Positions 3,750-23,561 of a DNA stretch of 23,566 nt are shown piece by piece. The number at the start of each line of letters is the position of its first letter. Positions within the stretch are counted from its first letter, which is position 1. This DNA comes from a virus. The stretch covers positions 1-23,566 of IMG/VR virus record IMGVR_UViG_3300028597_000074, one strand, 5' to 3'. Both the position numbers and the translations under genes were made by a program. The notes under the pieces were generated by a model, which was given only the letters and a program-made list of their open reading frames with translations, was not told where the DNA came from and ran no database searches.

Positions 3750-5279
3750 GTGCCAGTCAGCACCAAGACGTACGGACCACTGGCACTGACCAGGCCCCCG
3801 CGCGACAACGACGAGCTCCACAGCCTCGTGTACCGGCTGTGGGGCGTGTCCATCCCGCGCTACAGCGTGTGTGACGACCACGACGCGCCGTTCGACTGGT
3901 TCAGTGACGCGTTCTTCCGGCGCACCCCTTCGGCCATCTCGAAGGGGTCGCGTGGTCTGTCCGGCAAGAGCTACGCCATGTCCGCCCTCGGGCTCACCAG
4001 CGCCGTGGTGCTGGGCAGTGACGTGAACCTGCTGGGTGGCTCGTTCGAGCAGTCGGTCAACATCCACAAGCACATGCGCGCTGCGTGGGAGTGGTCGGGT
4101 GCGCCGCGCTACATGCTGCGCCGTGACGGCATGAACGAGGTCGAGCTCACCAACAACGCCAAGATCCGCCCGCTCACCGCCTCCCAGAAGACGGTGCGTG
4201 GCCCGCACCCTGCGTCCCTGCTGCTCGACGAGCTGGACGAGATGGACTACGAGATCTACGAGTCCGCCCTGGGCCAGCCGATGGACCAGGTGAACCACGT
4301 GGGTGTGCGCATCCACCCGGTGATCGCGGGCACCTCCACGCTCCAGTACGGCGACGGCACCTTCGTGAAGATCCTCAAGAACCTGGAGGAGCAGGGCATC
4401 GAGCCCTACGAGTGGTGCTACAAGGAGAGCGCGAATCCCTGGGACGGGTGGCTGAGCCAGGAGCAGATCGAGCACAAGAAGCGCACGGTCTCCGCAGAGC
4501 GCTGGCGCGTGGAGTACGAGCTGGGTGAGCCCGGTATCGGCAACCGTGCCATCGACTCCCACGCCGTGGAGCAGATGTTCGCCCAACCTGCGGACCAGAC
4601 CAAGCGCATCTCCCACAAGAAGGACTACGAGGAGTGGTGCTTCGAGGAGCACCAGAGCGTCGAGGACTACGTGATCGCGGCCGACTGGGCGCGCAGCCAG
4701 GACTACACCGTCATCACGGTGTGGCGGGCCACCGACCTGCCCATGAAGCTCGTGTACTACGTGCGCATGAACCACCTGCCCTGGCCGGTCATGATCAAGA
4801 AGTTCAACGACCTCCAGAAGCGCTACCGGGCCGAGGGCATCCACGACGCCACGGGCCTGGGTGACGTGGTGGCCTCCCTCATCGAGGACACCAACACCTG
4901 GGACTTCAAGATGACCGGTGCCCAGCGCGACGACATGCTCAGCGAGTACGTGGCAGCCGTGGAGCGGGGCAAGCTCTCCAGCCCCCGCATCGAGAGCTTC
5001 TACAAGGCCAACCTGTACTGCTCGGTGGAGGACCTGTTCTCCCGTGCCAAGGAGTTCCACCTGCCTGACGAGGTGTGCTCGGCAGCGCTCGCGTGGCGTG
5101 TGGTGAGCGACCGCTTCCCGGGCACGCTGCCCATCGGGCTGCCCAAGACCGACCAGAACTGGATGGCCAAGGCGGTGGAGGAGAACAAGCAGAAACTCGC
5201 ACCAGTGAGCACCTGGAACCCCGATGGTGCGGTGCGTGTGACGAGTGCGGCTCCTGAGTCCGCATGGGACATGCTCTGA
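3750..5279 (+). CDS. terL: Terminase large subunit (packaging ATPase/nuclease)
   Basis: A 509-residue protein that pumps DNA into the prohead and cuts the concatemer. The N-terminal ATPase has a Walker A-like motif with Lys73-Ser74 (residues 65-74), a Walker B motif Leu-Leu-Leu-Asp160-Glu161, and a coupling motif Ala-Gly-Thr-Ser-Thr at 193-197. The C-terminal RNase H-like nuclease shows the expected acidic residues: Asp312 in Ala-Asp-Trp, Asp366/Asp372 in Asp-Ala-Thr-Gly-Leu-Gly-Asp, and Asp440 near His-Leu-Pro-Asp-Glu. The length is normal for the family. The start is GTG with AGGAGG at 3739-3744 and a five-base spacer. It lies apart from both the probable small subunit (3.2 kb upstream) and the portal (6 kb downstream). 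A perfect 9-bp inverted repeat lies in the codons just before the P-loop. Confidence 0.95.
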   Translation: MPVSTKTYGPLALTRPPRDNDELHSLVYRLWGVSIPRYSVCDDHDAPFDWFSDAFFRRTPSAISKGSRGLSGKSYAMSALGLTSAVVLGSDVNLLGGSFEQSVNIHKHMRAAWEWSGAPRYMLRRDGMNEVELTNNAKIRPLTASQKTVRGPHPASLLLDELDEMDYEIYESALGQPMDQVNHVGVRIHPVIAGTSTLQYGDGTFVKILKNLEEQGIEPYEWCYKESANPWDGWLSQEQIEHKKRTVSAERWRVEYELGEPGIGNRAIDSHAVEQMFAQPADQTKRISHKKDYEEWCFEEHQSVEDYVIAADWARSQDYTVITVWRATDLPMKLVYYVRMNHLPWPVMIKKFNDLQKRYRAEGIHDATGLGDVVASLIEDTNTWDFKMTGAQRDDMLSEYVAAVERGKLSSPRIESFYKANLYCSVEDLFSRAKEFHLPDEVCSAALAWRVVSDRFPGTLPIGLPKTDQNWMAKAVEENKQKLAPVSTWNPDGAVRVTSAAPESAWDML

Positions 5280-11310: not shown

Positions 11311-13296
11311 ATGCCTAACCCGAACTTCGGCTTCATGGGTAACGACCTGAGCCGGTACGACGAGGTGGCGATCCCCGACCTGGAGGTCCAGCCCAAGTCC
11401 TCTCCGCTCCAGGAGATGGGCGTCACGGGCCTCAAGCGCGCAGCGGGCATCGTCGACGAGGAGTTCCTCCCTGCCCTCCGCGGCCGCAAGGCCGTCAAGA
11501 TCTTCCAGGAGATGTCCCTCAACGACCCCATCGTCGGGTCGCTGCTGTTCTCCATCACCCAGCTGCTGCGCAACGTCGACTGGCGGGTGGAGGGCACGGA
11601 CAACACTCCGGAGGCCACGGAAGCCAAGGACTTCCTGGAGCAGTGCATGGACGACATGTCGCACACGTGGGACGACATGATCGCGGACATCCTCACCTGC
11701 CTGGTCTACGGCTGGTCCTGGCACGAGATCGTCTACAAGAAGCGCATCGGCCCGTGGGAGCGCGACCCGAAGAAGAAGTCGAAGTACACCGACGGGCGCA
11801 TCGGCTGGCGCAAGATCGCCATCCGCTCCCAGGAGACGATGCTGCGCTGGATCTTCGACGAGGACGGCGGCATCAAGGGCCTGGTCCAGCTGAGCCCGCC
11901 GCAGTACCAGTCCGTGGTCATCCCCATCGAGCGCTCGCTGCTGTTCCGCACCGACACCTCCAAGGGCAACCCCGAGGGCGTGTCGATCCTGCGTCGGTCC
12001 TACCGGCCCTGGTTCTTCAAGAAGCGCCTGGAGGAGTTCGAGGCCATCGGTGTCGAGCGTGACCTCGCCGGTATGCCGGTGGCGCGCATCCCTGCCGCAT
12101 ACATGGACGCCCCTGCGGGCTCCAAGGAGCGCAAGGTCTTCGAGGCGTTCAAGAAGATGGTCTCCAACGTGCGTCGGGACGAGCACGAGGGCCTGGTGCT
12201 GCCCACGCAGTACGACCGCAACACCAAGCAGCCGCTGTTCGACTTCGAGCTGCTGAGCGCCGGTGGGTCGCGCACCTTCGACACCAACGCCCTCATCCAG
12301 CGCTACGAGCAGCGCATCCTCATGACCGTGCTGGCCGACTTCATCCTGGTGGGTCACGAGGGTCAGGGCTCCTACGCCCTGCACGTGGACAAGACCGGCA
12401 TCTTCCGCTCGGCCCTGAACTCGTTCGCCAACATGATCGCGGACGTGTTCAACCGGCACGCCATCCCCCGCCTGTTCGAGCTGAACGGGTGGAAGCTCGA
12501 CGAGCTGCCCAAGATCGTCCCCAACAACGTCGACCCGCCGAACCTGACGGAGCTGACGCAGTTCATGACCGGCATGGCGGGCATGGGCATGGAGTGGTTC
12601 CCCGACGCCGAGCTGGAGGCGTTCCTGCGCGATATCGCGCATCTGCCTGCGCTGCCGGACGAGCTCATGGAGATCCGCCGCCAGATGTCCCAGCAGAGCG
12701 CTGTCATGGGCTACGCGGACCAGCAGATGCAGTTCCTGGGCATGCAGCAGAAGGCCGAGATGGTGGGCCGGGGCTACACGCCGGAGCAGGCGATGCTGGC
12801 CTCCGAGCAGCCCAACGACGAGATGGCCGAGCAGCAGATGGGCCAGCAGCTGCGTCAGCAGGAGGGCGAGGCCCAGATGCAGGCGCAGTACGACACCTCG
12901 CTCCAGCAGGCCGAGATCGAGTCCGGACAGGCCGAGCAGAACGAGCAGCACGCCCAGGCCCAGCACACGCGCGAGATGGAGCTCATGCAAGCGCAGGAGG
13001 CCATCGCTCAGGCGGGGCTGGAGCGCGAGGCCGCCAAGCTCGACATGGCGGACTTCTACAAGGAGCGCGAGACCGAGCGTGGCGAGAAGGCTGCCACGTC
13101 CGGCGACAAGCGCGCTGCCATCGCGGGGGAGCGGGAGGGCAAGGCCAAGGACGCCGACGTCAAGCGTCAGCTGGCCCTGCGCGACCGGGAGGACAAGTCC
13201 AAGGACGCGGACGAGAAGCGTCAGATCCGCATCCAGCGGGCCAAGCAGACCGCCAAGCCCGACAAGAAGCCGCTGCCCACGAAGGGGAAGAAGTGA
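11311..13296 (+). CDS. Portal protein, DUF935-like, with long C-terminal extension
   Basis: A 661-residue protein. Residues about 50-430 match portals of the DUF935 (Mu gp29-like) group as I know them. They show an Ala-Val-Lys-Ile-Phe-Gln-Glu-Met-Ser-Leu-Asn-Asp-Pro-Ile-Val-Gly opening, a Trp-Arg-Val-Glu-Gly segment, and a Tyr-Gly-Trp-Ser-Trp-His-Glu-Ile-Val motif (about 132-141) typical of the family. The portal forms the dodecameric DNA channel at the head vertex and docks the terminase. The last 200 residues are unusual: about 459-560 is Gln/Met/Ala-rich and helical, and about 574-661 is a long Lys/Asp/Glu/Arg helix, resembling a scaffold or coiled-coil extension. The start has AGGAG at 11301-11305. 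A 16-bp palindrome occurs in the coding sequence at 12626-12641. Confidence 0.9.
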   Translation: MPNPNFGFMGNDLSRYDEVAIPDLEVQPKSSPLQEMGVTGLKRAAGIVDEEFLPALRGRKAVKIFQEMSLNDPIVGSLLFSITQLLRNVDWRVEGTDNTPEATEAKDFLEQCMDDMSHTWDDMIADILTCLVYGWSWHEIVYKKRIGPWERDPKKKSKYTDGRIGWRKIAIRSQETMLRWIFDEDGGIKGLVQLSPPQYQSVVIPIERSLLFRTDTSKGNPEGVSILRRSYRPWFFKKRLEEFEAIGVERDLAGMPVARIPAAYMDAPAGSKERKVFEAFKKMVSNVRRDEHEGLVLPTQYDRNTKQPLFDFELLSAGGSRTFDTNALIQRYEQRILMTVLADFILVGHEGQGSYALHVDKTGIFRSALNSFANMIADVFNRHAIPRLFELNGWKLDELPKIVPNNVDPPNLTELTQFMTGMAGMGMEWFPDAELEAFLRDIAHLPALPDELMEIRRQMSQQSAVMGYADQQMQFLGMQQKAEMVGRGYTPEQAMLASEQPNDEMAEQQMGQQLRQQEGEAQMQAQYDTSLQQAEIESGQAEQNEQHAQAQHTREMELMQAQEAIAQAGLEREAAKLDMADFYKERETERGEKAATSGDKRAAIAGEREGKAKDADVKRQLALRDREDKSKDADEKRQIRIQRAKQTAKPDKKPLPTKGKK

Positions 13297-13646: not shown

Positions 13647-14636
13647 GTGATCAGTGCGTTCGGTGTCGACCATGGCGAGGAGATCGCCAAGTCCCTGGTC
13701 GACGGGAAGTTCGTTCGTGCCGTGGACGTCGGCGCGAAGGGGCTTCGTGCTGCCCGCAAGAACGCCCAGGGCGGGTACGTCTCCGACGCTGGCAACCCGC
13801 TGGAACAGCTTCTGCGTGCCACGGGGGCTGCCCCTGCGCGCAGCAAGAGCGACGTGCCGTCCTTCGACAAGAGCGGCCTGTTCGGCGGGCGCTACCTCTC
13901 GCGTGGCCCGGACGACGAGACCATCTCCGTCCTGACCAACAAGGAGGGCGTCACCCAGATGCTCTCCCAGCTCGCTGGGCGCGACCTCTCGGGCGCACCT
14001 GCCGAGGCCATCGAGTTCGTGGGCACCAAGTCGGGCAAGTACAAGAACGCACACCCGCTGCGCTACGGCAGCGCCAAGGGCGGACGCACCTACGTGGTCT
14101 CGGACAAGAAGGACGAGAAGACCATCGCGCACGAGCTCCTGCACTCTGAGGGGCGCTCGTCGTGGCGTATCGCCCAGGTCCAGAACGACCCCAAGAAGCT
14201 GGCTCGCGAGGAGGCCCGTGCGGACACGCTCTCGGGCACGCACTCGGAGATCCACCGCTCGCCCTTCTTCCGCTCGCACACCCAGCTCAACCGGGCCAAT
14301 GGGGAGAAGGCGAGCAAGCTGCGCGCCAAGGCGACCCGAGACCAGGGCAAGGCGGATCGCGCGGAGAGCATCTTCGGCCAGACGTACTACGGCACGCGCG
14401 CGAACATGCGTGGTCAGGCCGCCGACACCGGGGACGCGTTCAAGCGCACCCAGGACAAGATCGACGCAGACGGGCGCTACGGCACCAAGGAAGGCTTCGC
14501 GCGGTACAAGCGGCGCAAGGCCACCCAGCGCGCCACTCTGGGCGCTGGTGCGGGCGCTGGCACGGTCGTGGTGGCGGCGTACAAGACCAAGGACGGCCGC
14601 GAGGTCAAGGGATACCGGAGGAAGAGCGATGGCTGA
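13647..14636 (+). CDS. Putative HEXXH zinc metallopeptidase-like structural-region protein
   Basis: A 329-residue protein. The N-terminal Ile-Ser-Ala-Phe-Gly-Val-Asp-His segment is familiar from small phage head-region proteins. Residues 162-166 read His-Glu-Leu-Leu-His, a classic zincin HEXXH motif, followed at 188-193 by Glu-Glu-Ala-Arg-Ala-Asp, which could supply the third zinc ligand (Glu). A basic, polar linker and a Gly/Ala hydrophobic stretch (about 299-311) follow; the latter could be a membrane-associating segment. Start: GTG 13647 with GAGGTG six bases upstream. Likely role: processing of head proteins, or a virion-carried protease acting on the host envelope. The motif is visible; the activity is inference, and an HEXXH can occur by chance in a non-enzyme. 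Confidence 0.6.
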   Translation: MISAFGVDHGEEIAKSLVDGKFVRAVDVGAKGLRAARKNAQGGYVSDAGNPLEQLLRATGAAPARSKSDVPSFDKSGLFGGRYLSRGPDDETISVLTNKEGVTQMLSQLAGRDLSGAPAEAIEFVGTKSGKYKNAHPLRYGSAKGGRTYVVSDKKDEKTIAHELLHSEGRSSWRIAQVQNDPKKLAREEARADTLSGTHSEIHRSPFFRSHTQLNRANGEKASKLRAKATRDQGKADRAESIFGQTYYGTRANMRGQAADTGDAFKRTQDKIDADGRYGTKEGFARYKRRKATQRATLGAGAGAGTVVVAAYKTKDGREVKGYRRKSDG

Positions 14637-15219
14637 CCTGCCCAGCGTCCTGTCCTACGGCCAGGTGGGAGGACGCTTCCTGCTCGCCGTGGGTGACTCG
14701 ACCGACCCCGGGCGCGAGCCTGACGCCCAGGCCGCCGAGGGCAAGATCCGCTTCACCCCGGCCCCTGGTCACGTCATCGTGGCCGGGGCGTCTCCCGTGC
14801 CGGTGTTCATCACCCCCAAGACCATCGAGTGCACCCTGGACACCGAGGGCTACCTCGTGGACCCCCAGAACTCGCGGGACGTGTGGCTGATCGCCGGGGA
14901 CGACCCGGACATGAACCCCACGGGCTGGACGTACAAGGTGACGTTCGAGCTCAAGGGTGTCGTCATCCCGAGCTTCGACCTGCTGGTGCAGGGAGGCGTG
15001 CGCAAGGACCTCGCGCTCGTCGCCCCGATCCCCTCGAACCCGGGCACCACCGTCGTGGTGACCGAGCAGTCGCGCATCGCGGCTGAGGCTGCTGCGGCAT
15101 CCGCTCAGGCAGCCCTGGCGCAGATCATGGCCTACGCACCGGTCCTGTTCCTGCCCACGGGCTCGCCCATCCCGCCCGACGCGCCCGACCCGGTGCTCGT
15201 CGCGTTCTACGGCTCCTAG
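14629..15219 (+). CDS. Minor tail / tip-attached beta protein with Ala-rich C-terminus
   Basis: A 196-residue protein. The N-terminal region (about 1-130) has the pattern of small phage tail-tip proteins: a Gly-Lys-Ile-Arg-Phe-Thr-Pro segment, a Thr-Ile-Glu-Cys-Thr-Leu-Asp-Thr-Glu-Gly-Tyr-Leu segment, and a Trp-Thr-Tyr-Lys-Val-Thr-Phe strand. The last 60 residues include an Ala-rich helix (about 150-170), often seen as an adaptor to the next fibre. The ATG at 14629 has CGGAGGAAG six bases upstream and overlaps the previous gene by eight bases. It ends ten bases before the next gene. Confidence 0.65.
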   Translation: MADLPSVLSYGQVGGRFLLAVGDSTDPGREPDAQAAEGKIRFTPAPGHVIVAGASPVPVFITPKTIECTLDTEGYLVDPQNSRDVWLIAGDDPDMNPTGWTYKVTFELKGVVIPSFDLLVQGGVRKDLALVAPIPSNPGTTVVVTEQSRIAAEAAAASAQAALAQIMAYAPVLFLPTGSPIPPDAPDPVLVAFYGS

Positions 15220-15228
15220 GAGGAAGTC

Positions 15229-15576
15229 ATGGCTCTCAACGCCACCGCATCGAAGAACTCCCTGGCGACCTCCTTCGGGACGGCCGCCACCCACGCAGCG
15301 CTGTACACCACGTCCGCAGGTGCCTCCCAGGGCACCGAGGTCACCGGTGGCTCGCCCGCCTACGCGCGCAAGGCCATCACGTGGGGTGCGCCCACCAACG
15401 GCGTCATCACCGCCTCGGTCACGTTCGACGTGCCTGCGTCCACGACCATCGTGGCGGCTGGTGTGCACACGGCTGTCTCGGGCGCGGGCAACTACCTGGA
15501 GGGTGGCACGGTCACGTCCCAGGCGTTCAGCTCCCAGGGGACGTACACGCTGAACCTCACCTTCACCATCGCCTGA
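15229..15576 (+). CDS. Small tail/decoration protein (paralogue of the 21204 gene)
   Basis: A 115-residue Thr/Ala/Gly-rich protein with strands throughout. It shares an identical Thr-Gly-Gly-Ser-Pro-Ala-Tyr-Ala-Arg-Lys-Ala block with the protein at 21204-21554, plus a Val-Thr-Phe-Asp-Val-Pro strand and a Gly-Val-(His/Trp)-Thr-Ala strand in the same order. This is a family seen next to phage fibre genes. In both places it directly precedes a large lectin/repeat fibre gene, so it may anchor or decorate that fibre. The start has AGGAGG at 15219-15224. Confidence 0.7.
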   Translation: MALNATASKNSLATSFGTAATHAALYTTSAGASQGTEVTGGSPAYARKAITWGAPTNGVITASVTFDVPASTTIVAAGVHTAVSGAGNYLEGGTVTSQAFSSQGTYTLNLTFTIA

Positions 15577-15589
15577 CGAGGAGGCCCTC

Positions 15590-18500
15590 GTGGCGATCAC
15601 CTACGAGGCGGCGAACACCACACCGTTCTCCGTCGCCTCGACCACGTTCTCGTTCACCCCAGACGCGGGTGTTCAGGCCGATGACGTCTTCGTCGTGGCG
15701 GTGGCTCACCGTCAGGACTCCAACGTCAACGTGCCCGCGAACACCCTGGAGACCCCCGTCAACAAGGCGGAGATCACCACGGGTGACCGACACGTGACGG
15801 TGTTCGTCTGGAGGGCCACCTCGACCTCTACCGCTGCGGTCACGTTCACGCTCACCGCGTCCACGGTGGGCAACGTGGCCTGGGCGCGCTTCCGGGGTGT
15901 GGACGTGTCGGACCCGGTGGATGTGACCTCGCCGGGCAACTACACCTACCCCACGCCCAACCCTGCGCCCTCGATCACCACCACGGTGGCCAACGCCTTC
16001 GTCGTGGGTGGCATCGCCTGTGGGTCGTCCAGCGCGACGCCGGGCGTGCCGGGAGGCTGGACCTCGCGGGTCACCACCACGGTGTCCACGGGGCTCATCG
16101 CCACCAAGGGCGTCCAGGCGAGCGCAGGAGCGACCGGCAGCGCGGCGTTCACCACCAGTCCCACCACGATCAACACGGTCTCCTGGCAGCTCGCCCTGCG
16201 CCCTGCTGGTGCGGTCACCGCTCCCGCACTCACGCACACGCTGACCGACCTGTCCACGCCGACGTCGATCTCCGCCAAGATCAAGGGCACCAACGCCACC
16301 TCGGCCCGCCTCAAGGTGGGGACGAACCTCGCGGTCACCACGGGCGTGGTCTACGGCTCCTCGGTGACTCTGGACGCTAACGGCTACGCCGACCTCGTGT
16401 GCACGGGGCTGAACCCCTGGACCCAGTACTACTACGCCGTGGAGCTCACCGGCAGCACGGTGGAGACCACGGCGCAGGTGGGCAAGGCCAAGACCCTGCC
16501 CAACCCGGGCACGCCCACGAGCTTCACCATCGGGTTCGGCTCCTGCAACGAGTTCTACGACGAGACCATGAGCATCTCGCTCACGGCGTTCACGAACCTC
16601 AACGCGCGCGACCCCGACCTGTTCGTGCACCTGGGGGACATCTCCTACGAGGACAACGCCTCCTCGTCCCAGGCGTCTCAGCGCGCGGGCCTGGAGTACA
16701 ACCTCAACTTCAACGCCTCGATGCGCTCGTCCTTCGCCGGGCGGCAGTCGGTGTGCCTGGCCTCCGACCACGACTCGGGCGGCAACAACGCCTTCCCGGG
16801 CGCGTGGTCCCCTGCCATCCGTGCGGCGCGCAAGCAGGTGCTGCCGGTGCCGGACTGCCCCGACCCCAACGGCCTGTACGGCTCGACGGTGTTCGGCCGG
16901 GTGCGGATGATCTACCTGGACACCCGCAACTTCATGGCCGCCGACTTCAGCACGCGCCTGGGCTCGGCTCAGCTCGCCTGGCTGAAGGCGGAGCTGAATC
17001 AGCCGGAGCCGCTGAAGATCATCTGGACCGAGCAGGTCTGGAACGACTACTCGGTGCCCGAGGGCGACGACAAGTGGTGCAACTTCCCCGAGCGCACGAC
17101 CATCGGGAACATGATCGCTGCCGCCCCGGGCACGGTCATCATGGCCCACGGCGACTCGCACATGCTCGCCGCCGACAACGGGACGAACAACAACTGGGGT
17201 GGCTTCCCCACGGTGTGCGCGGCGGCGTTCTACAACTACGCCTCGATCAAGGGCGACGCCACGTGGACGCAGGGCACCTACCCCACGACTGACGGCGCGC
17301 AGGTCAGCCAGTACGGCATGTTCGTCATCGCCGACACCGGCGACGACATCACCGTCCAGTTCAACGGGTACGACTCCTCGAACACCTCGCGCGTGGCCCT
17401 GACGGTCACCGCAGAGGGCACACCGTCCACCCCCATGTCGGCGTACAACTTCGAGGGCTCGGGGCTGTCCTTCGCGGACCAGAGCGGTGGCGGACGCACC
17501 GTCACCCTCAGCTCCTCGTCCCAGCGCTCGGCCACGGCCAAGAACGGCACGGGTGCGGGGGCGCTGGCGACTGCGCTGGCCGGTGGCTCCTCGGGTGTGG
17601 CCGTCGCTCCGTACAACGCCACCACGTCGCGCTCCATGACCTTCTGGGCGCGTGAGTCGGGTGCTGGTGTGTGGCTGGCCCGCTGGCAGGTCACGGCGTC
17701 GGACGCGGGCGCGTTCGGGGTCTACTACACCGGAGGCACGGTCCGAGGGCGCTTCCGCAAGGGCGGGACGAACTACAACGTCGACAGCGGCGTGGCTGCA
17801 CCCGTGGGCACCTACACGCACTACGGCGTCACGTACAACGCCACCACGGGCGTGGGACGGCTGTACATCAACGGGGCGCTCGCGGGCAGTGTCACCGTGC
17901 CTGGTGGCGGCTCGCTGGACGCTGCCGACGGCATCGACCTCGCGGCGGACGGCGCGGCTGTGGGTGGGCTGCCGACCAACTGGCTGATCGACGACCTGCG
18001 GATCTACAACCACGAGATCCCGGACTTCCAGGTCGCCGTGGACATGAACACCCCGGTGCCCTCCACGGCTGGGGAGTCCTACACCGGCTCGCTGGCCATC
18101 TCGGCGGGCGGCACGCTGGCGCGTACCCAGGCGGGCATGAGCACAGCAGGTACGCTCGGAGTGACCGCAGGCGGCACCCTGGGACGTGCCCCCTCGGGGA
18201 TGAGCGTGGCCGGGACACTGGCCACCACCGCCAGCGGCACCCTGGGCCGGACGGGCTCGCCGGGGATCAGAGGAGATCTCTCGATGAGCTCGTCCGGTTC
18301 CCTCGCCTTCACCGCTACCCCGCGCACGGGTGGCTCGCTGGCGATCACCGCCGCAGGCACGCTCTCCACGGGCTCCACGTCCTTCCAGGGCACGCTGTCC
18401 ATGACGGCCGGGGGCACCCTCGCGCTGTCGGGCCGCATCGCCATGGTCGGGTCGCTGGGCATGAACGCCACCGGGATGCTGTCCTTCGGGGCGACCCCGG

Positions 18501-19384
18501 CCTTCACGCAGACACTGAACATCACCGCAACCGGGACACTGGGCCGCGCTGGGCGACCCGCCGTGTCCGGGCTGCTCGCCATGGGGGGAACGGGCACGCT
18601 GAGCATGACACCGGTCGTGGCAGGGGACTCGCGCGCGCAGGGATGGGTCGGTGGCCAGATCCAGGACCTCAACCTCGCGCTGCGCTTCAACGGGGTGGAC
18701 TACCCCATCACGCTCGTGGCCAAGGTCGACGGGGAGGAGTACCCGCTGAACCACGGGATCACTCCGCCGCCCGAGGGCCTGGCTGCGCGCTGGACCTTCG
18801 ATGACGGGGTGGAGGACCAGATCGCCGGGCGTGCCCTGACGCTGACGTCCACCACGCTCGTGGCCGCGCGGGGAGGCCAGGCGCTGGCTGCACCGACCGC
18901 CACCGGCACGGCGGACTCCGAGGACGGCTTCCTGGACCTGATGGGCTTCTCCATCGCGTACTGGCTGTACACCCCGGACAACGCCTCCACCACGGCCATC
19001 ACGCGCGTGGCCTTCACCGCAGCCGGGGTCACCGTCGCAGAGCTGTACTCGGGCTGGCGTCTGCTCGCCGGGTCGTACTACACGCTCTCGCGGCTGCTGG
19101 TGGTCACGGACACCGGCTCGCTGAACAGCCTCCACCAGTCGAGCGTCGGCACCGCCATCCCGTCCCAGCAGTGGCGGCACGTGGCCGGGGTCTACGACGG
19201 CGCGGAGATGAAGCTGTACGTCAACGGCGTGCTGGTCGACTCCGATCCCAAGACAGGTGTGGTGACCGACCCGGACGCCTTCACTATCCGCGTGCAGAAC
19301 ACCGCCCTGGTGGACGACGTGGAGATCTGGTCCCGGCCGCTCGACGCTGCCGAGATCGCCGCCATGTACGAGGAAGGGCTCTAG
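15590..19384 (+). CDS. Large fibre with PhoD-type metallophosphoesterase, two lectin-like domains and beta repeats
   Basis: A 1264-residue protein. Residues 1-205 are a beta-rich attachment domain. Residues 210-300 are a fibronectin-like domain like the PhoD N-terminal domain. Residues 310-605 are a PhoD-like phosphoesterase with Phe-Gly-Ser-Cys (316-319), His-Leu-Gly-Asp...Tyr-Glu (347-354), Asp-His-Asp...Asn-Asn (393-400), Asp-Thr-Arg (444-446) and His-Gly-Asp-Ser-His (520-524), all placed as in that metal-binding family. Residues 616-820 form a LamG/concanavalin-like lectin domain. Residues 833-1010 are nine short beta repeats. Residues about 1060-1264 form a second lectin-like domain. PhoD enzymes cleave phosphodiesters, and B. 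subtilis PhoD acts on teichoic acids, so cutting of host wall polymers during adsorption is the inferred role. GTG start, GAGGAGG at 15578-15584. Confidence 0.85.
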   Translation: MAITYEAANTTPFSVASTTFSFTPDAGVQADDVFVVAVAHRQDSNVNVPANTLETPVNKAEITTGDRHVTVFVWRATSTSTAAVTFTLTASTVGNVAWARFRGVDVSDPVDVTSPGNYTYPTPNPAPSITTTVANAFVVGGIACGSSSATPGVPGGWTSRVTTTVSTGLIATKGVQASAGATGSAAFTTSPTTINTVSWQLALRPAGAVTAPALTHTLTDLSTPTSISAKIKGTNATSARLKVGTNLAVTTGVVYGSSVTLDANGYADLVCTGLNPWTQYYYAVELTGSTVETTAQVGKAKTLPNPGTPTSFTIGFGSCNEFYDETMSISLTAFTNLNARDPDLFVHLGDISYEDNASSSQASQRAGLEYNLNFNASMRSSFAGRQSVCLASDHDSGGNNAFPGAWSPAIRAARKQVLPVPDCPDPNGLYGSTVFGRVRMIYLDTRNFMAADFSTRLGSAQLAWLKAELNQPEPLKIIWTEQVWNDYSVPEGDDKWCNFPERTTIGNMIAAAPGTVIMAHGDSHMLAADNGTNNNWGGFPTVCAAAFYNYASIKGDATWTQGTYPTTDGAQVSQYGMFVIADTGDDITVQFNGYDSSNTSRVALTVTAEGTPSTPMSAYNFEGSGLSFADQSGGGRTVTLSSSSQRSATAKNGTGAGALATALAGGSSGVAVAPYNATTSRSMTFWARESGAGVWLARWQVTASDAGAFGVYYTGGTVRGRFRKGGTNYNVDSGVAAPVGTYTHYGVTYNATTGVGRLYINGALAGSVTVPGGGSLDAADGIDLAADGAAVGGLPTNWLIDDLRIYNHEIPDFQVAVDMNTPVPSTAGESYTGSLAISAGGTLARTQAGMSTAGTLGVTAGGTLGRAPSGMSVAGTLATTASGTLGRTGSPGIRGDLSMSSSGSLAFTATPRTGGSLAITAAGTLSTGSTSFQGTLSMTAGGTLALSGRIAMVGSLGMNATGMLSFGATPAFTQTLNITATGTLGRAGRPAVSGLLAMGGTGTLSMTPVVAGDSRAQGWVGGQIQDLNLALRFNGVDYPITLVAKVDGEEYPLNHGITPPPEGLAARWTFDDGVEDQIAGRALTLTSTTLVAARGGQALAAPTATGTADSEDGFLDLMGFSIAYWLYTPDNASTTAITRVAFTAAGVTVAELYSGWRLLAGSYYTLSRLLVVTDTGSLNSLHQSSVGTAIPSQQWRHVAGVYDGAEMKLYVNGVLVDSDPKTGVVTDPDAFTIRVQNTALVDDVEIWSRPLDAAEIAAMYEEGL
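18086..18625 (+). repeat. Nine tandem ~20-residue beta repeats in the large fibre
   Basis: Residues about 833-1010 of the 1264-residue fibre consist of about nine units of 19-21 residues with the consensus Gly-(Ser/Thr)-Leu-Xaa-(Ile/Met/Val)-(Thr/Ser)-Ala-Xaa-Gly-Thr-Leu. The units have diverged in DNA sequence. This suggests an elongated beta spacer between the two lectin-like domains. Confidence 0.8.
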
Positions 19385-19385
19385 C

Positions 19386-19556
19386 ATGCAGTTCCCCAAC
19401 GAAATCCCCGCCAAGGTCAGCGTCTCGGATGCGAAGCCCAAAGAGCAGTTCAAGAAGATGTCTCCGGACGGTGCTGATCTCAACTCGCACGCCTGCCCTC
19501 CAGGCACCAAACTGAAGAAGAAGGGCAAGTCGGGCAAGAAGACCGAAGGGATGTAG
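19386..19556 (+). CDS. Small basic protein, 56 aa
   Basis: A 56-residue ORF (ATG 19386, TAG 19554-19556) with AGGAAGGG seven bases upstream. The C-terminal third is very Lys-rich and an Ala-Cys-Pro-Pro-Gly motif precedes it. No membrane segment. It opens the small run leading to the endolysin. Function unknown; the basic tail could interact with nucleic acid or membrane lipids. Confidence 0.55.
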   Translation: MQFPNEIPAKVSVSDAKPKEQFKKMSPDGADLNSHACPPGTKLKKKGKSGKKTEGM

Positions 19557-19558
19557 TC

Positions 19559-19639
19559 ATGGACCGCAACGTCGTCTGGACCATCGCGGGCATCGCGATC
19601 ATCGTCGCCATCGTCCTCTGGATCGCCTCCGTGCTCTGA
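19559..19639 (+). CDS. Tiny single-pass membrane peptide, 26 aa
   Basis: A 26-residue ORF two bases after the previous stop, with GAAGGG eight bases before the ATG. Residues 6-26 are one hydrophobic helix (Trp-Thr-Ile-Ala-Gly-Ile-Ala-Ile-Ile-Val). Its position just upstream of the endolysin suggests a role in lysis, such as a holin partner or antiholin, but this is inference from location. Peptides this short are easily missed by annotation. Confidence 0.5.
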   Translation: MDRNVVWTIAGIAIIVAIVLWIASVL

Positions 19640-19687
19640 CCCCCGTAGACAGCGCCGAGACCATGGTGGTGACTCAAGGAGGACCCC

Positions 19688-20797
19688 ATGGCCATCTACT
19701 CCGGCGCGGTCTACAAGCCGCTCAGCCGTAACCACGGTGGCGTGCGCCCTCGTACCACGTGCGCCATCCTGCACGTGGACGCTGGTGGTGCGAACTCGCT
19801 GTACGGCTGGTTCAACAACCCGGCGTCCTCGGCGTCCTCGCACTTCTACGTGAAGTACGACGGGACCGTCGAGCAGTACCTCGACACCAACCTCATCGCA
19901 TGGACGCAGCGCGCGGGCAACCTCTACGGCATCGGCATCGAGACCCAGGGCCTCGGCTCGGGCACGTGGACCGACGCCCAGATGGCGTCCATCGCCGCAC
20001 TGCTCAAGTGGATCAACAAGGTCCACGGCGTGCTGCTCACCGACATGGGGAACTCCAAGAAGAGCTCCCGTGGCGTGGGCTACCACCGCATGGGCTGCGA
20101 CCCGTGGCGGCTGTCCGGCGCTGACGTGTGGGGACCGCGCGGCAAGGTCTGCCCTGGCGACGGTCGTGTGGCGCAGTTCGACGCTGTGGTGCGAGCAGCC
20201 GGTGGCGCGACCATCCCGGTCACGAACCCGGTCAACCCGGGCAACACCGTCCCCGAGCTCAACGCGGGCTTCTCCAAGGCGCACATCACCTGGGTGCAGC
20301 AGGAGCTCAAGAAGCTCGGCTTCTACAAGGACGTCGTGGACGGCGTGCGTGGGCCGAACACCCAGGCCGCCATCAAGGCGTTCCAGAAGTCGCGCGGGCT
20401 CGTCCAGGACGGTCTGCCCGGACCGCTCACCACGAACGCGCTCAAGGGCATCAAGCCTGCCCAGCCGAGCAACGCGCTGGCGCTGGACGGGAACTTCGGC
20501 CCGGCCTCGGTCAAGCGTCTCCAGGCGAGCCTGGGCACGACCCAGGACGGGGTGATCTCCGGCCAGGGGACGGCGGACGCCAAGTACCACCCGGCGTTCA
20601 AGTCGATCAAGTACGGCCCGGGTGGGTCGGACGTCGTGCGTGCCCTCCAGCGCAAGCTCGGGGTCACTGCCGACGGCTACCTCGGCCCGAACACCATCAA
20701 GGCCCTCCAGCGGTACCTGGGCATCAAGCAGGACGGCTACTTCGGCCCCACCACCGCCAAGACGCTTCAGGCTCGCCTGAACGCTGGCACCTTCTGA
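19688..20797 (+). CDS. Endolysin: N-acetylmuramoyl-L-alanine amidase with peptidoglycan-binding repeats
   Basis: A 369-residue lysin. Residues 20-170 are an Amidase_2-type zinc amidase that cuts the bond between MurNAc and L-Ala. Candidate zinc ligands are His29, His133 and Cys155 in Val-Cys-Pro-Gly-Asp, and Glu85 lies in a Gly-Ile-Glu-Thr-Gln motif. Residues 195-255, 262-300 and 312-367 are peptidoglycan-binding (PG_binding_1-type) units marked by four Asp-Gly-Xaa-Xaa-Gly-Pro turns (218-223, 267-272, 329-334, 349-354). There is no signal peptide, as expected for a holin-dependent lysin. The start has AGGAGG at 19677-19682. The holin-like gene follows after ten bases. Confidence 0.92.
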   Translation: MAIYSGAVYKPLSRNHGGVRPRTTCAILHVDAGGANSLYGWFNNPASSASSHFYVKYDGTVEQYLDTNLIAWTQRAGNLYGIGIETQGLGSGTWTDAQMASIAALLKWINKVHGVLLTDMGNSKKSSRGVGYHRMGCDPWRLSGADVWGPRGKVCPGDGRVAQFDAVVRAAGGATIPVTNPVNPGNTVPELNAGFSKAHITWVQQELKKLGFYKDVVDGVRGPNTQAAIKAFQKSRGLVQDGLPGPLTTNALKGIKPAQPSNALALDGNFGPASVKRLQASLGTTQDGVISGQGTADAKYHPAFKSIKYGPGGSDVVRALQRKLGVTADGYLGPNTIKALQRYLGIKQDGYFGPTTAKTLQARLNAGTF

Positions 20798-20807
20798 GGA
20801 GAGGGAC

Positions 20808-21200
20808 ATGCTGTACAACGCACTGATCAGCGGCATCCGTACCGGTGTCGCGCTGCTCGTGGGCCTGGCGATCACCTGGCTCGTGAGCGTGGGAGTGACC
20901 CTCCCCGCAGACGCAGAGGTCCAGCTCAACGCGATCCTCTTCGTCGTCGTCTCGGCGGGCTACAACGCCCTCGTGAACTGGCTGGCCGTGAAGGTCCACC
21001 CGGCGTTCGGGTACCTGCTCGGTGTGCCGAAGACGCCGGAGTACAACGCGGTGGCTGTCCAGGAGAAGGACGGACAGATCGTCGCCTCTGCGAACTCGCC
21101 CATCGAGACCGGTGAGATCGTCGTCGTCCAGCCTGCTGAGCCTCACGATCCGGCGAAGGTCGACAACTTCGAGCCCCACCCCTACGAGACCGAGGAGTGA
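20808..21200 (+). CDS. Holin-like membrane protein
   Basis: A 130-residue protein with two predicted transmembrane helices (about 11-32 and 43-64) and a long polar acidic tail (about 75-130). A Leu-Leu-Gly-Val-Pro-Lys-Thr-Pro-Xaa-Tyr segment follows helix 2, a pattern common in actinophage proteins annotated as holins. Holins let the endolysin cross the membrane. It sits ten bases after the endolysin and starts at an ATG with AGGAGAGGG upstream. The role is strongly suggested by neighbour and topology but not proven. Confidence 0.75.
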   Translation: MLYNALISGIRTGVALLVGLAITWLVSVGVTLPADAEVQLNAILFVVVSAGYNALVNWLAVKVHPAFGYLLGVPKTPEYNAVAVQEKDGQIVASANSPIETGEIVVVQPAEPHDPAKVDNFEPHPYETEE

Positions 21201-21203
21201 CAG

Positions 21204-21554
21204 ATGCCTCTGCTCGACTCTGAGCGGAACGCCGTCGCGGACCTCCAGGCGTCGCGTCTCCAGTACGTGTCGCTGCACACGGGCAACCCCGGTACCACCG
21301 GTACCGCTGAGGCCACGGGTGGCAGCCCTGCGTACGCGCGCAAGGCGCTGGTGTTCACGGCTGCGTCCGGTGGCACGGCCACGGCCGCGGAGGTCACCTT
21401 CGACGTGCCCGCTGGCACCTACACGCACTTCGGTGTGTGGACGGCAGCCACAGGCGGCACGTTCCGTGGTGGCAACCCGCTGTCCGCGTCCACGACGATC
21501 AGCCCCCAGGGTCAGATCAAGGTCACGGTCTCCATCCCCGTCACCGCTGCGTAG
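21204..21554 (+). CDS. Small tail/decoration protein (paralogue of the 15229 gene)
   Basis: A 116-residue Thr/Gly/Ala-rich protein sharing the identical 11-residue Gly-Ser-Pro-Ala-Tyr-Ala-Arg-Lys-containing block and the following strands with the protein at 15229. It follows the holin-like gene after three bases and directly precedes another lectin/repeat fibre gene, mirroring the 15229/15590 pair. Probably a fibre-associated structural protein. Confidence 0.7.
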   Translation: MPLLDSERNAVADLQASRLQYVSLHTGNPGTTGTAEATGGSPAYARKALVFTAASGGTATAAEVTFDVPAGTYTHFGVWTAATGGTFRGGNPLSASTTISPQGQIKVTVSIPVTAA

Positions 21555-21560
21555 GCCGCC

Positions 21561-23561
21561 ATGCCGTACAACAACGGCAGCGGCAGCACTGCGGGGACGG
21601 CCATCACCACCGCGAACTCCGGTGGTGCCTCCGGCGACGCCTTCTACTCGGTGTCGACGGTGGCACCACTGTGGGCTTCCACCCAGACCGGCCCCTACGC
21701 GGGGATCGGTCGGCCGATGCAGTTCAACGCGTCGTCGAGCGCTCAGTACGTCCAGGTCATCTCCAGCCTGAGCGGCAGCCAGGACACGATCTTCCTGTCC
21801 TTCTACTTCTACGCCTCCTCGATCACCGCGACCACGACGGTCGCCACGCTCCTCACCAGCACCACCGGAAGCCCGATGGTGCGCATCGCCATCGACACCG
21901 CCCGGCACATCCGCATCTTCGGGTGGAGCGGGGCGTCCCTGTACACCGGGGTGGCAGGCGCAGAGATCCCGCTGAACCAGTGGGTCTTCGTCTCCCTGAT
22001 GACCGAGACCCTGGCCTCCTCGCGCCTGCGCCTGAAGGTGCAGACCATGGACGGCACCGTGGTGGAGGAGGTCATCCTCTCGGGCGTGGCCACCGGTGCC
22101 ACCGGCTCGCAGACCACCAACGCCATCCGGATCGGCTCGGACACCGTGTCGGGGGCGTACTCGCAGTACTTCCTGTACGAGCCGCGCATGGAGGAGCACG
22201 GGACGTACTCCCTGGACCTCATGCTCACCATGCCGCCCAGGGTGACCGGCGAGCTGCGCCTCTTCGACCGCGCGGCGGCGTTCAACGAGGACGAGCCCTA
22301 CACCACCCTGGCCGCCTTCATGCCAGGCACCTGGACCCCGGCCAGCCAGATGCTGAGCCCCAGCAACACCTCGGTCACCGGAGTGTTCGCCGCGAGCACG
22401 CTGTTCACTCCGGAGATGACGGACATGTCCGGGGTCATGGTCATCCTGCTCACCGGGGACCTGATCTTCCTGGACGAGCTCGGCGTGGGGAACATGCACG
22501 TGGAGCGCTGGAACGAGGCGGGCACCGTGCAGCGCTCCATCGGCCAGGAGTACACGACCTACGACGGCGACCCGGACCCCTCCACGAGCGCGGTCATGTA
22601 CGTCATGCCCTTCCACCAGTCCGAGGGCGGCCAGATGGTCAAGCTCATCGGCTCGGGCTTCACGGGCTCGGGGGACGGCGAGGGCACCAAGATCTCGGTG
22701 CTGTTCATCTACAACGTGAACCCGGGCACCGCGCCGCTGATGGTCTTCCGCTCCTACGCGGACAACACCACCGGCCCCGTGCAGCCGCTCCAGCGCAGCG
22801 GTGACGAGGAGTTCCCCGAGGTCTGGGAGCGCGAGCTGTACTCCACCGCCACCGTCCTCGTCACCGAGGTCCAGGCAGGCACCACGCCCCCAGGGGACTT
22901 CTGGGACGTCCTGCGTCCGTACATGGCGTCAGGCACCGAGGCCACGCACACCTACGTCTACAACTCCTACTCCCTGGCCGCCGCCGTCAACATGAAGTCC
23001 TGGCAGGACGGAACCAGCGAGGTCTGGTACTCCACTCGCCAGCGCAACTCCTGGGCCATGTGGGAGATCATGATCCCGATCCAGGGCGTGCTGAAGGGCG
23101 TGCTGCCCTACACCGTGAACCTGGTCGGGCGCTCCCAGATCGGCGGGGTGCAGGCCCTGCCGTTCACCGTGGGTCTCCAGGGGGCCGTGAAGCAAGAGTT
23201 CTCCGCCACAGGCTCCACCCCGCTCACCGTGGGCCTCGCCGGACGCACAGAGCCGCAGCACACCGTCACCGGCTCCGTCACACTCGACGTGGGCCTGGTG
23301 GGCACGGCCAAGTCAGTCTCCAACCTGGCGCTCAGCGTGGGGCTCGTGGGCACCGTGAAGATCACCGCGCGTCTGCCCATCGTGCTCGGGCTCAGTGGTC
23401 GCAACACCCCGACCCAGGTGCAGGCAATCCTGCCCATCGTGCTCGGGCTGAAGACCCGCCTGGCTCCCCCACCAGTCGCTGACCCTCTCGAAGCCATCTC
23501 TCTGTCTCCTCTTGACTTCGACGTGACCCTCGCGCCGATCCAGGACTACGAGGTGGTCTGA
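21561..23561 (+). CDS. Lectin-like fibre protein with C-terminal short beta repeats, 666 aa
   Basis: A 666-residue protein. Residues about 45-225 form a LamG/concanavalin-like domain (a Leu-Ser-Phe-Tyr-Phe-Tyr strand and an Asn-Gln-Trp-Val-Phe-Val-Ser-Leu strand). Residues about 225-505 form a second, unrecognised beta-rich region. Residues about 515-635 contain seven short repeats with a (Val/Ile/Leu)-(Gly/Asn)-Leu core followed by a short polar stretch. Like the 15590 protein it combines a lectin domain with short beta repeats, though here the repeats are at the C-terminus and there is no phosphoesterase. It likely binds host surface glycans. The stop TGA overlaps the ATG of the next gene. 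Confidence 0.75.
   Translation: MPYNNGSGSTAGTAITTANSGGASGDAFYSVSTVAPLWASTQTGPYAGIGRPMQFNASSSAQYVQVISSLSGSQDTIFLSFYFYASSITATTTVATLLTSTTGSPMVRIAIDTARHIRIFGWSGASLYTGVAGAEIPLNQWVFVSLMTETLASSRLRLKVQTMDGTVVEEVILSGVATGATGSQTTNAIRIGSDTVSGAYSQYFLYEPRMEEHGTYSLDLMLTMPPRVTGELRLFDRAAAFNEDEPYTTLAAFMPGTWTPASQMLSPSNTSVTGVFAASTLFTPEMTDMSGVMVILLTGDLIFLDELGVGNMHVERWNEAGTVQRSIGQEYTTYDGDPDPSTSAVMYVMPFHQSEGGQMVKLIGSGFTGSGDGEGTKISVLFIYNVNPGTAPLMVFRSYADNTTGPVQPLQRSGDEEFPEVWERELYSTATVLVTEVQAGTTPPGDFWDVLRPYMASGTEATHTYVYNSYSLAAAVNMKSWQDGTSEVWYSTRQRNSWAMWEIMIPIQGVLKGVLPYTVNLVGRSQIGGVQALPFTVGLQGAVKQEFSATGSTPLTVGLAGRTEPQHTVTGSVTLDVGLVGTAKSVSNLALSVGLVGTVKITARLPIVLGLSGRNTPTQVQAILPIVLGLKTRLAPPPVADPLEAISLSPLDFDVTLAPIQDYEVV
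23103..23460 (+). repeat. Seven short beta repeats in the 666-residue fibre
   Basis: Residues about 515-633 consist of seven units of 15-21 residues, each built on a Leu-Xaa-(Thr/Ser/Ile)-Val-Gly-Leu-Xaa-Gly strand and a variable turn. This is similar in style, though not in sequence, to the nine-repeat segment at 18086-18625. Confidence 0.7.

Follow-up and report, generated by a model that had tools for sequence, protein, structure and literature searches.

A phage fibre-type protein with a PhoD-fold domain and its possible role as a virion-borne envelope phosphodiesterase

A PhoD-fold domain within a fibre-type protein

The IMG/VR virus record IMGVR_UViG_3300028597_000074, which at its complete length of 23,566 bases forms the window of this analysis and is probably a fragment, encodes a 1264-residue protein combining an N-terminal phage domain, a PhoD-type metallophosphoesterase, two lectin-like modules and a repeat tract (Table 1). 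A first-pass annotation of the bare sequence had described a protein of this size made of fibre-like domains and repeats, and this description holds: the open reading frame (ORF) is uninterrupted, profile search finds two LamG-type modules above the Pfam cut-off, and the GxLxxTAxGTL unit recurs about nine times at a spacing of roughly 20 residues. The terminal part (residues 1059–1264) is 51% identical to a lectin of Stenotrophomonas phage Jojan60. Judged by hydropathy only, the protein shows neither a signal peptide nor a membrane segment (maximum 19-residue mean 1.33). The G+C content at third codon positions is 0.92, and the codon-position GC pattern is the same as in the neighbouring genes. 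A large antisense ORF (15563–20929, minus strand) is set aside as a high-GC artefact because this pattern fits the plus strand.

Table 1. Features of the fibre-type protein, its gene and the adjacent genes in the window.
Feature	Position	Strand	Remarks
Fibre protein with PhoD domain, 1264 aa	15590..19384	+	GTG start, stop included, frame open
N-terminal all-beta domain, residues 1–205	15590..16204	+	Family common to the relatives' PhoD proteins and tail protein ORF21 of Thermobifida phage P1312; predicted fold like mycobacteriophage minor tail proteins
PhoD_N-like part plus PhoD metallophosphoesterase, residues 210–612	16217..17425	+	Ligands C319, D350, Y353, S392 (Asp265 equivalent), D393, N399, N400, D522, H524
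First Laminin_G_3 lectin-like domain, residues 665–814	17582..18031	+	Pfam E 2e-15, passes cut-off
Approximate 20-residue beta repeats, about nine, residues 833–1004	18086..18601	+	GxLxxTAxGTL unit
Second Laminin_G_3 lectin-like domain, residues 1114–1257	18929..19360	+	Pfam E 4.4e-18, passes cut-off
Ribosome-binding site AGGAGG	15579..15584	+	5' of the GTG start (upstream sequence CGCCTGACGAGGAGGCCCTC)
Fibre-type protein, upstream	14608..15219	+	PHROG tail / tail fibre families
Small structural-type protein	15229..15576	+	Ends 13 bp before the PhoD fibre gene; PHROG 240, paralogue of 21204–21554
Endolysin, after the PhoD fibre gene	19688..20797	+	Amidase_2 plus peptidoglycan-binding domains

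The PhoD-family motifs lie in the order and at the places given by the first-pass annotation, with FGSC at residues 316–319, HLGD..Y at 347–353, SDHDSGGNN at 392–400, DTR at 444–446 and HGDSH at 520–524. The Pfam PhoD profile (PF09423) matches with E 1.2e-7 for the whole protein and 4.3e-9 for the region alone, with bit scores above the gathering cut-off of 27, and PHROG 13624, labelled 'hydrolase', matches with E 4.5e-93. A profile built from phage relatives in turn matches the structure of Bacillus subtilis PhoD (2YEQ; E 1.8e-31). An AlphaFold model of the region, built with 45 phage sequences, is confident over residues 210–612 (predicted local distance difference test, pLDDT, mostly >90), and the predicted fold matches 2YEQ with Z 33.6 and a root-mean-square deviation of 2.9 Å over 379 residues (model range 206–609). 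The PhoD_N part that had also been expected gives a weak Pfam match below the cut-off (E 0.089), but the structural match begins at residue 206; the 2YEQ architecture of an N-terminal beta domain and a metallophosphoesterase fold is reproduced in the model. The presence of a PhoD-fold domain in the fibre protein is confirmed by a match well beyond chance.

Iterative profile searches over IMG/VR loci defined the family of the N-terminal domain, and a further profile, omitting P1312-like sequences, still finds this family in P1312 ORF21 (E 3e-14). The model of residues 1–218 is of moderate confidence (pLDDT 74); most of its best viral structural matches are phage proteins without a name, and some are minor tail proteins of mycobacteriophages. 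This likeness and the family match to ORF21 support a phage-type domain at this end of the protein, where the first-pass annotation had placed an attachment domain. The best match in the PDB, the head domain of the Tuc2009 receptor-binding protein, reaches a Z of only 7.8, so that an attachment role is no more than putative; that no PDB match exceeds Z 8 carries no weight on the novelty of the fold. A tblastn search of the domain against phages gave no matches. A further structural match, to a Microbacterium phage protein named glycerophosphodiester phosphodiesterase (GDPD; TM-score 0.66, 19% identity), suggests that the N-domain may elsewhere carry a different phosphodiesterase. The IMG/VR locus L119 was considered as a module swap, with the N-domain in the same gene slot and PhoD missing; this candidate was dropped, as the contig ends within the ORF and the part behind the N-domain is similar to the propeller of another relative, L115, so that PhoD may follow.

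The metal site and its serine variant

Metal ligands were judged from the alignment and not from model coordinates. In B. subtilis PhoD, activity is abolished or strongly reduced by substitution of Cys180, Asp207, Asp265, Asp266, Asn271, Asn272 or Asp436 (PMC4223295), for which the aligned residues of the window protein are C319, D350, S392, D393, N399, N400 and D522, respectively. The Fe3+ ligand set of Cys, Asp, Tyr and His is present (C319, D350, Y353 and H524); the numbering of Cys180 and Asp207 is that of PMC4223295, while the Tyr and His assignments are our own reading of the alignment. At the Ca2+ positions, D393, N399, N400 and D522 are kept, leaving S392 as the sole departure among the ligands checked. 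The anticipated PhoD fold and a nearly complete ligand set are thus recovered, but the DHD...NN motif, though located where it had been placed, conceals the replacement of the B. subtilis Asp265 by serine. Overall, the window protein shares with B. subtilis PhoD (2YEQ, PF09423) the two-domain fold over residues 206–609, the motif order, the Fe ligands and most Ca ligands, whereas it is only about 20% identical, has Ser at the Asp265 position, shows no export signal and is embedded in a lectin-bearing fibre.

Across the 45 phage PhoD proteins, D350, Y353, D444, D522 and H524 are invariant. The C319 position is occupied by Cys in 36 and by Asp in eight, a split that matches the two Fe-ligand subfamilies described for the PhoD family (PMC4223295). 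At the Asp265-equivalent position, Asp is found in 35 proteins and Ser in 10, the window protein included. The Ser variant also occurs in a chromosomal PhoD of Pengzhenrongella frigida (L110:8680-10200), which is 42% identical and has an N-terminal membrane segment. Since Ser recurs in a coherent phage group and in a chromosomal actinobacterial PhoD, S392 is more readily taken for a variant of the site than for a sign of decay, and since the remaining site is kept across the Ser group, a loss of function does not come first among the explanations.

It is nonetheless conceivable that the PhoD domain is a non-catalytic binding module, in which S392 breaks the calcium site and the domain only recognises phosphorylated glycans in the manner of a lectin. 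The inactivity of the B. subtilis Asp265Ala variant (PMC4223295), the presence of Ser in 10 of the 45 phage proteins and the location of the domain among lectin domains fit such a module. We consider it unlikely, as a domain without catalysis should have shed several ligands while here all others are kept, and as the same Ser occurs in the chromosomal Pengzhenrongella PhoD with its N-terminal membrane segment. The phage enzyme may have come from such a cellular protein, or may have given rise to it.

Relatives and their position among phage genes

PhoD in structural-type phage proteins is a widespread and annotated, yet uncharacterised class. A tblastn search recovers 63 annotated phage records with related PhoD, from phages of Streptomyces, Microbacterium, Nostoc, Anabaena, Dolichospermum and Thermobifida. 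A motif-pattern scan of IMG/VR yields 66 stretches, and profile search identifies a PhoD ORF in nearly all of them; the motif pattern and alignment A6 succeeded, whereas no loci came from a genome scan with alignment A2 or from scans with a single back-translated sequence, either of PhoD or of the C-terminal lectin. In 57 phage PhoD-type proteins, Pfam identifies PhoD (54 proteins), DUF5047 (7), LamG (2), fn3 (2), CBM_4_9 (2) and Phage_tail_C (1). The uncharacterised DUF5047, which in these seven proteins shares a polypeptide with PhoD, is a possible tail-specific partner domain.

Among named phages, the PhoD proteins of Streptomyces phages Samisti12 and Tomas, Microbacterium phages Alleb, Rowlf and Phinky, Thermobifida phage P1312 (ORF22) and Nostoc phage YongM have the same core at about 24–37% identity, and several lie in structural operons. 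They are annotated as hydrolase, phosphoesterase, purple acid phosphatase or phosphodiesterase. They differ from the window protein in being mostly 600–700 aa long and in lacking LamG modules, and the papers found contain no experimental characterisation of them; the body of literature searched likewise gave no experiments with PhoD-bearing phage fibres. Closer relatives are found in IMG/VR, where L099, L092, L067 and L115 combine the N-domain with a PhoD of the Ser variant at about 39–53% identity in the best stretch. The closest, L099 and L092, are 53% and 52% identical over residues 1–612. L099, L092 and L067 end shortly after PhoD, whereas L115 joins the N-domain, a propeller-like part, PhoD and the LamG end also seen in the window protein into a single protein of 1272 aa. 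Because of this BNR/propeller-like part (L115:7186-11004), which lies between the N-domain and PhoD, one fibre may carry two glycan-acting modules.

The gene order of these relatives points to the tail. In L099 and L092, the PhoD gene comes last, behind tape measure, Dit, minor tail, lysin and fibre genes, and in L067, which lies in Agrococcus pavilionensis, it follows tape measure, tail and fibre genes. The L115 gene has a tail protein/fibre pair on one side and the genes for the tail assembly chaperone and the tape measure on the other, and that of P1312 lies directly behind the tape measure and tail protein genes. In L023, PhoD is part of a 1331-aa protein with a C-terminal Phage_tail_C domain. 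This synteny and the Phage_tail_C relative support a place in a tail or fibre module for the window gene, whose product the first-pass annotation had read as a fibre protein.

Other copies invite a different placement, on the head. Alleb, Rowlf and Phinky carry the PhoD gene within the head-tail structural operon, in Alleb behind the region of the major capsid gene. The cyanophage copies stand ahead of a 'capsid fiber protein', and head-fibre PHROGs are matched by neighbours of both the window gene and the L099 gene. The protein might accordingly be a capsid fibre or decoration, with an enzyme that would still target the cell surface or surface-attached glycans. The tail-module position in L099, L092, L067, L115 and P1312 and the Phage_tail_C terminus of L023 make this improbable.

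When PhoD genes turn up in viromes, they are commonly interpreted as auxiliary metabolic genes for phosphate acquisition. On that model, the window protein would be a phosphatase made in the infected cell that frees phosphate for phage replication and is no part of the virion, which would suit the copies outside the structural module in Streptomyces and large Microbacterium phages. For the window protein such a role is very unlikely: no export signal or membrane anchor is seen by hydropathy, PhoD is fused to a tail-type N-domain, lectins and repeats, and the closest relatives have the gene in the tail module. The signal peptide claimed for P1312 ORF22 is, by the same measure, not seen in ORF22. 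As many copies sit in tail modules, part of the virome tallies of PhoD may consist of structural proteins.

The host of the window phage is likely an actinobacterium, as far as sequence similarity can tell. Its portal is closest to those of Arthrobacter phages, the small neighbour protein is closest to Microbacterium, Mycobacterium and Gordonia phages, and relatives are located in genomes of Agrococcus and Pengzhenrongella. The C-terminal lectin has its nearest counterpart in a Stenotrophomonas phage.

Proposed function and genomic surroundings

From the domains, the fold, the ligand conservation and the synteny of relatives, we infer a virion location, an activity, a substrate and a role. The evidence leans, if modestly, towards a tail-fibre or adsorption protein whose built-in PhoD-type phosphodiesterase cuts an envelope polymer so that the tail reaches the wall. 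The N-terminal phage domain would anchor the protein at the end of the tail or on an adjacent fibre protein, and the two LamG modules with the beta-repeat spacer would hold it on a cell-surface glycan. The PhoD domain, having taken up Fe3+ and Ca2+ before or during assembly, would cleave the phosphodiesters of a phosphate-containing polymer in the envelope of the host, most likely an actinobacterium, and so open the tail's way to the wall.

Several observations weigh against such a fibre enzyme. S392 takes the place of an aspartate whose alanine substitution inactivates B. subtilis PhoD (PMC4223295). The PhoD gene lies away from structural genes in Streptomyces Boydwoodruffvirinae and in two large Microbacterium phages. 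Mass spectrometry of P1312 virions, which saw 24 of 93 proteins, gave no peptide coverage for the PhoD protein ORF22 nor for the neighbouring tail protein ORF21 (PMC4569894). The 23,566-base fragment has no gene recognisable as tape measure or major capsid, so that tail synteny is taken from the relatives. Finally, PhoD relatives exist in cyanophages, and to our knowledge cyanobacteria have no teichoic acid. Because cyanophages carry PhoD copies, the family as a whole does not appear restricted to teichoic acid, which suggests a broader substrate range and counts against the proposal in its narrow teichoic form.

For the window protein, teichoic or other polyol-phosphate wall polymers would be the first candidate substrates. 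By analogy, teichoic acid is plausible and a reasonable first choice, because it is the proposed substrate both of B. subtilis PhoD (PMC4223295) and of the GDPD domains in enterococcal phage tail modules (PMC10194240). A virion enzyme acting instead on nucleic acid, such as extracellular or competing phage DNA, or on membrane phospholipid would accord with the membership of Streptomyces chromofuscus phospholipase D in the PhoD family (PMC4223295) and with the DNA degradation proposed by the authors of the P1312 study (PMC4569894), but the lectin domains point to a glycan, and we hold such targets to be distinctly doubtful.

The proposed role, virion-borne cutting of wall-polymer phosphodiesters, resembles that of the phi29 gp12 appendage, a wall teichoic acid hydrolase. 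The fold is different, gp12 being a trimeric beta-helix appendage. The GDPD proteins of Lactobacillus phage Ld17 and of enterococcal phages likewise place a phosphodiesterase domain with proposed teichoic acid action in the tail module; the GDPD fold is unrelated to that of PhoD, while the Microbacterium phage protein named GDPD shares a structurally similar N-domain with the window protein. No GDPD domain was found in the 16 PhoD-bearing phage records searched, and the two enzymes may, on this raw count, be alternatives. The enzyme class in phages is already in databases; in the role of a polymer phosphodiesterase borne by virions, it would bring a new fold to a known kind of function. A wider generalisation, possible though we would not yet bet on it, holds that phage PhoD fibres are widespread virion-borne envelope phosphodiesterases with a fold distinct from phi29 gp12 and GDPD, and that the S392 group, shared with an actinobacterial cell-surface PhoD, works with an altered Fe/Ca site that fits one particular wall polymer of actinobacteria. 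If active, these fibres would bear on how actinophages pass through phosphate-rich wall polymers; they would represent a third enzyme fold, dependent on iron and calcium, for the cutting of envelope phosphodiesters by virions, and could supply enzymes with which to take the wall polymers of actinobacteria apart.

Within the window, the PhoD fibre gene is flanked by fibre-type and lysis genes, its upstream neighbours being of fibre type and small structural type. A promoter and terminator scan found nothing exceeding chance. The overall gene order is unusual, running from fibre-type genes through the large terminase (3750–5279), many small genes and the portal (11311–13296) to fibres, the PhoD fibre and the endolysin. 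A 666-aa protein (21561–23561), for which Pfam and PHROG give no match, has an N-terminus of lectin-like appearance and a C-terminal repeat tract in the style of the PhoD fibre. The small proteins at 15229–15576 and 21204–21554, both matching PHROG 240 ('head protein'), are paralogues of about 35% identity, and each directly precedes a different long fibre-type gene (at 15590 and 21561, respectively).

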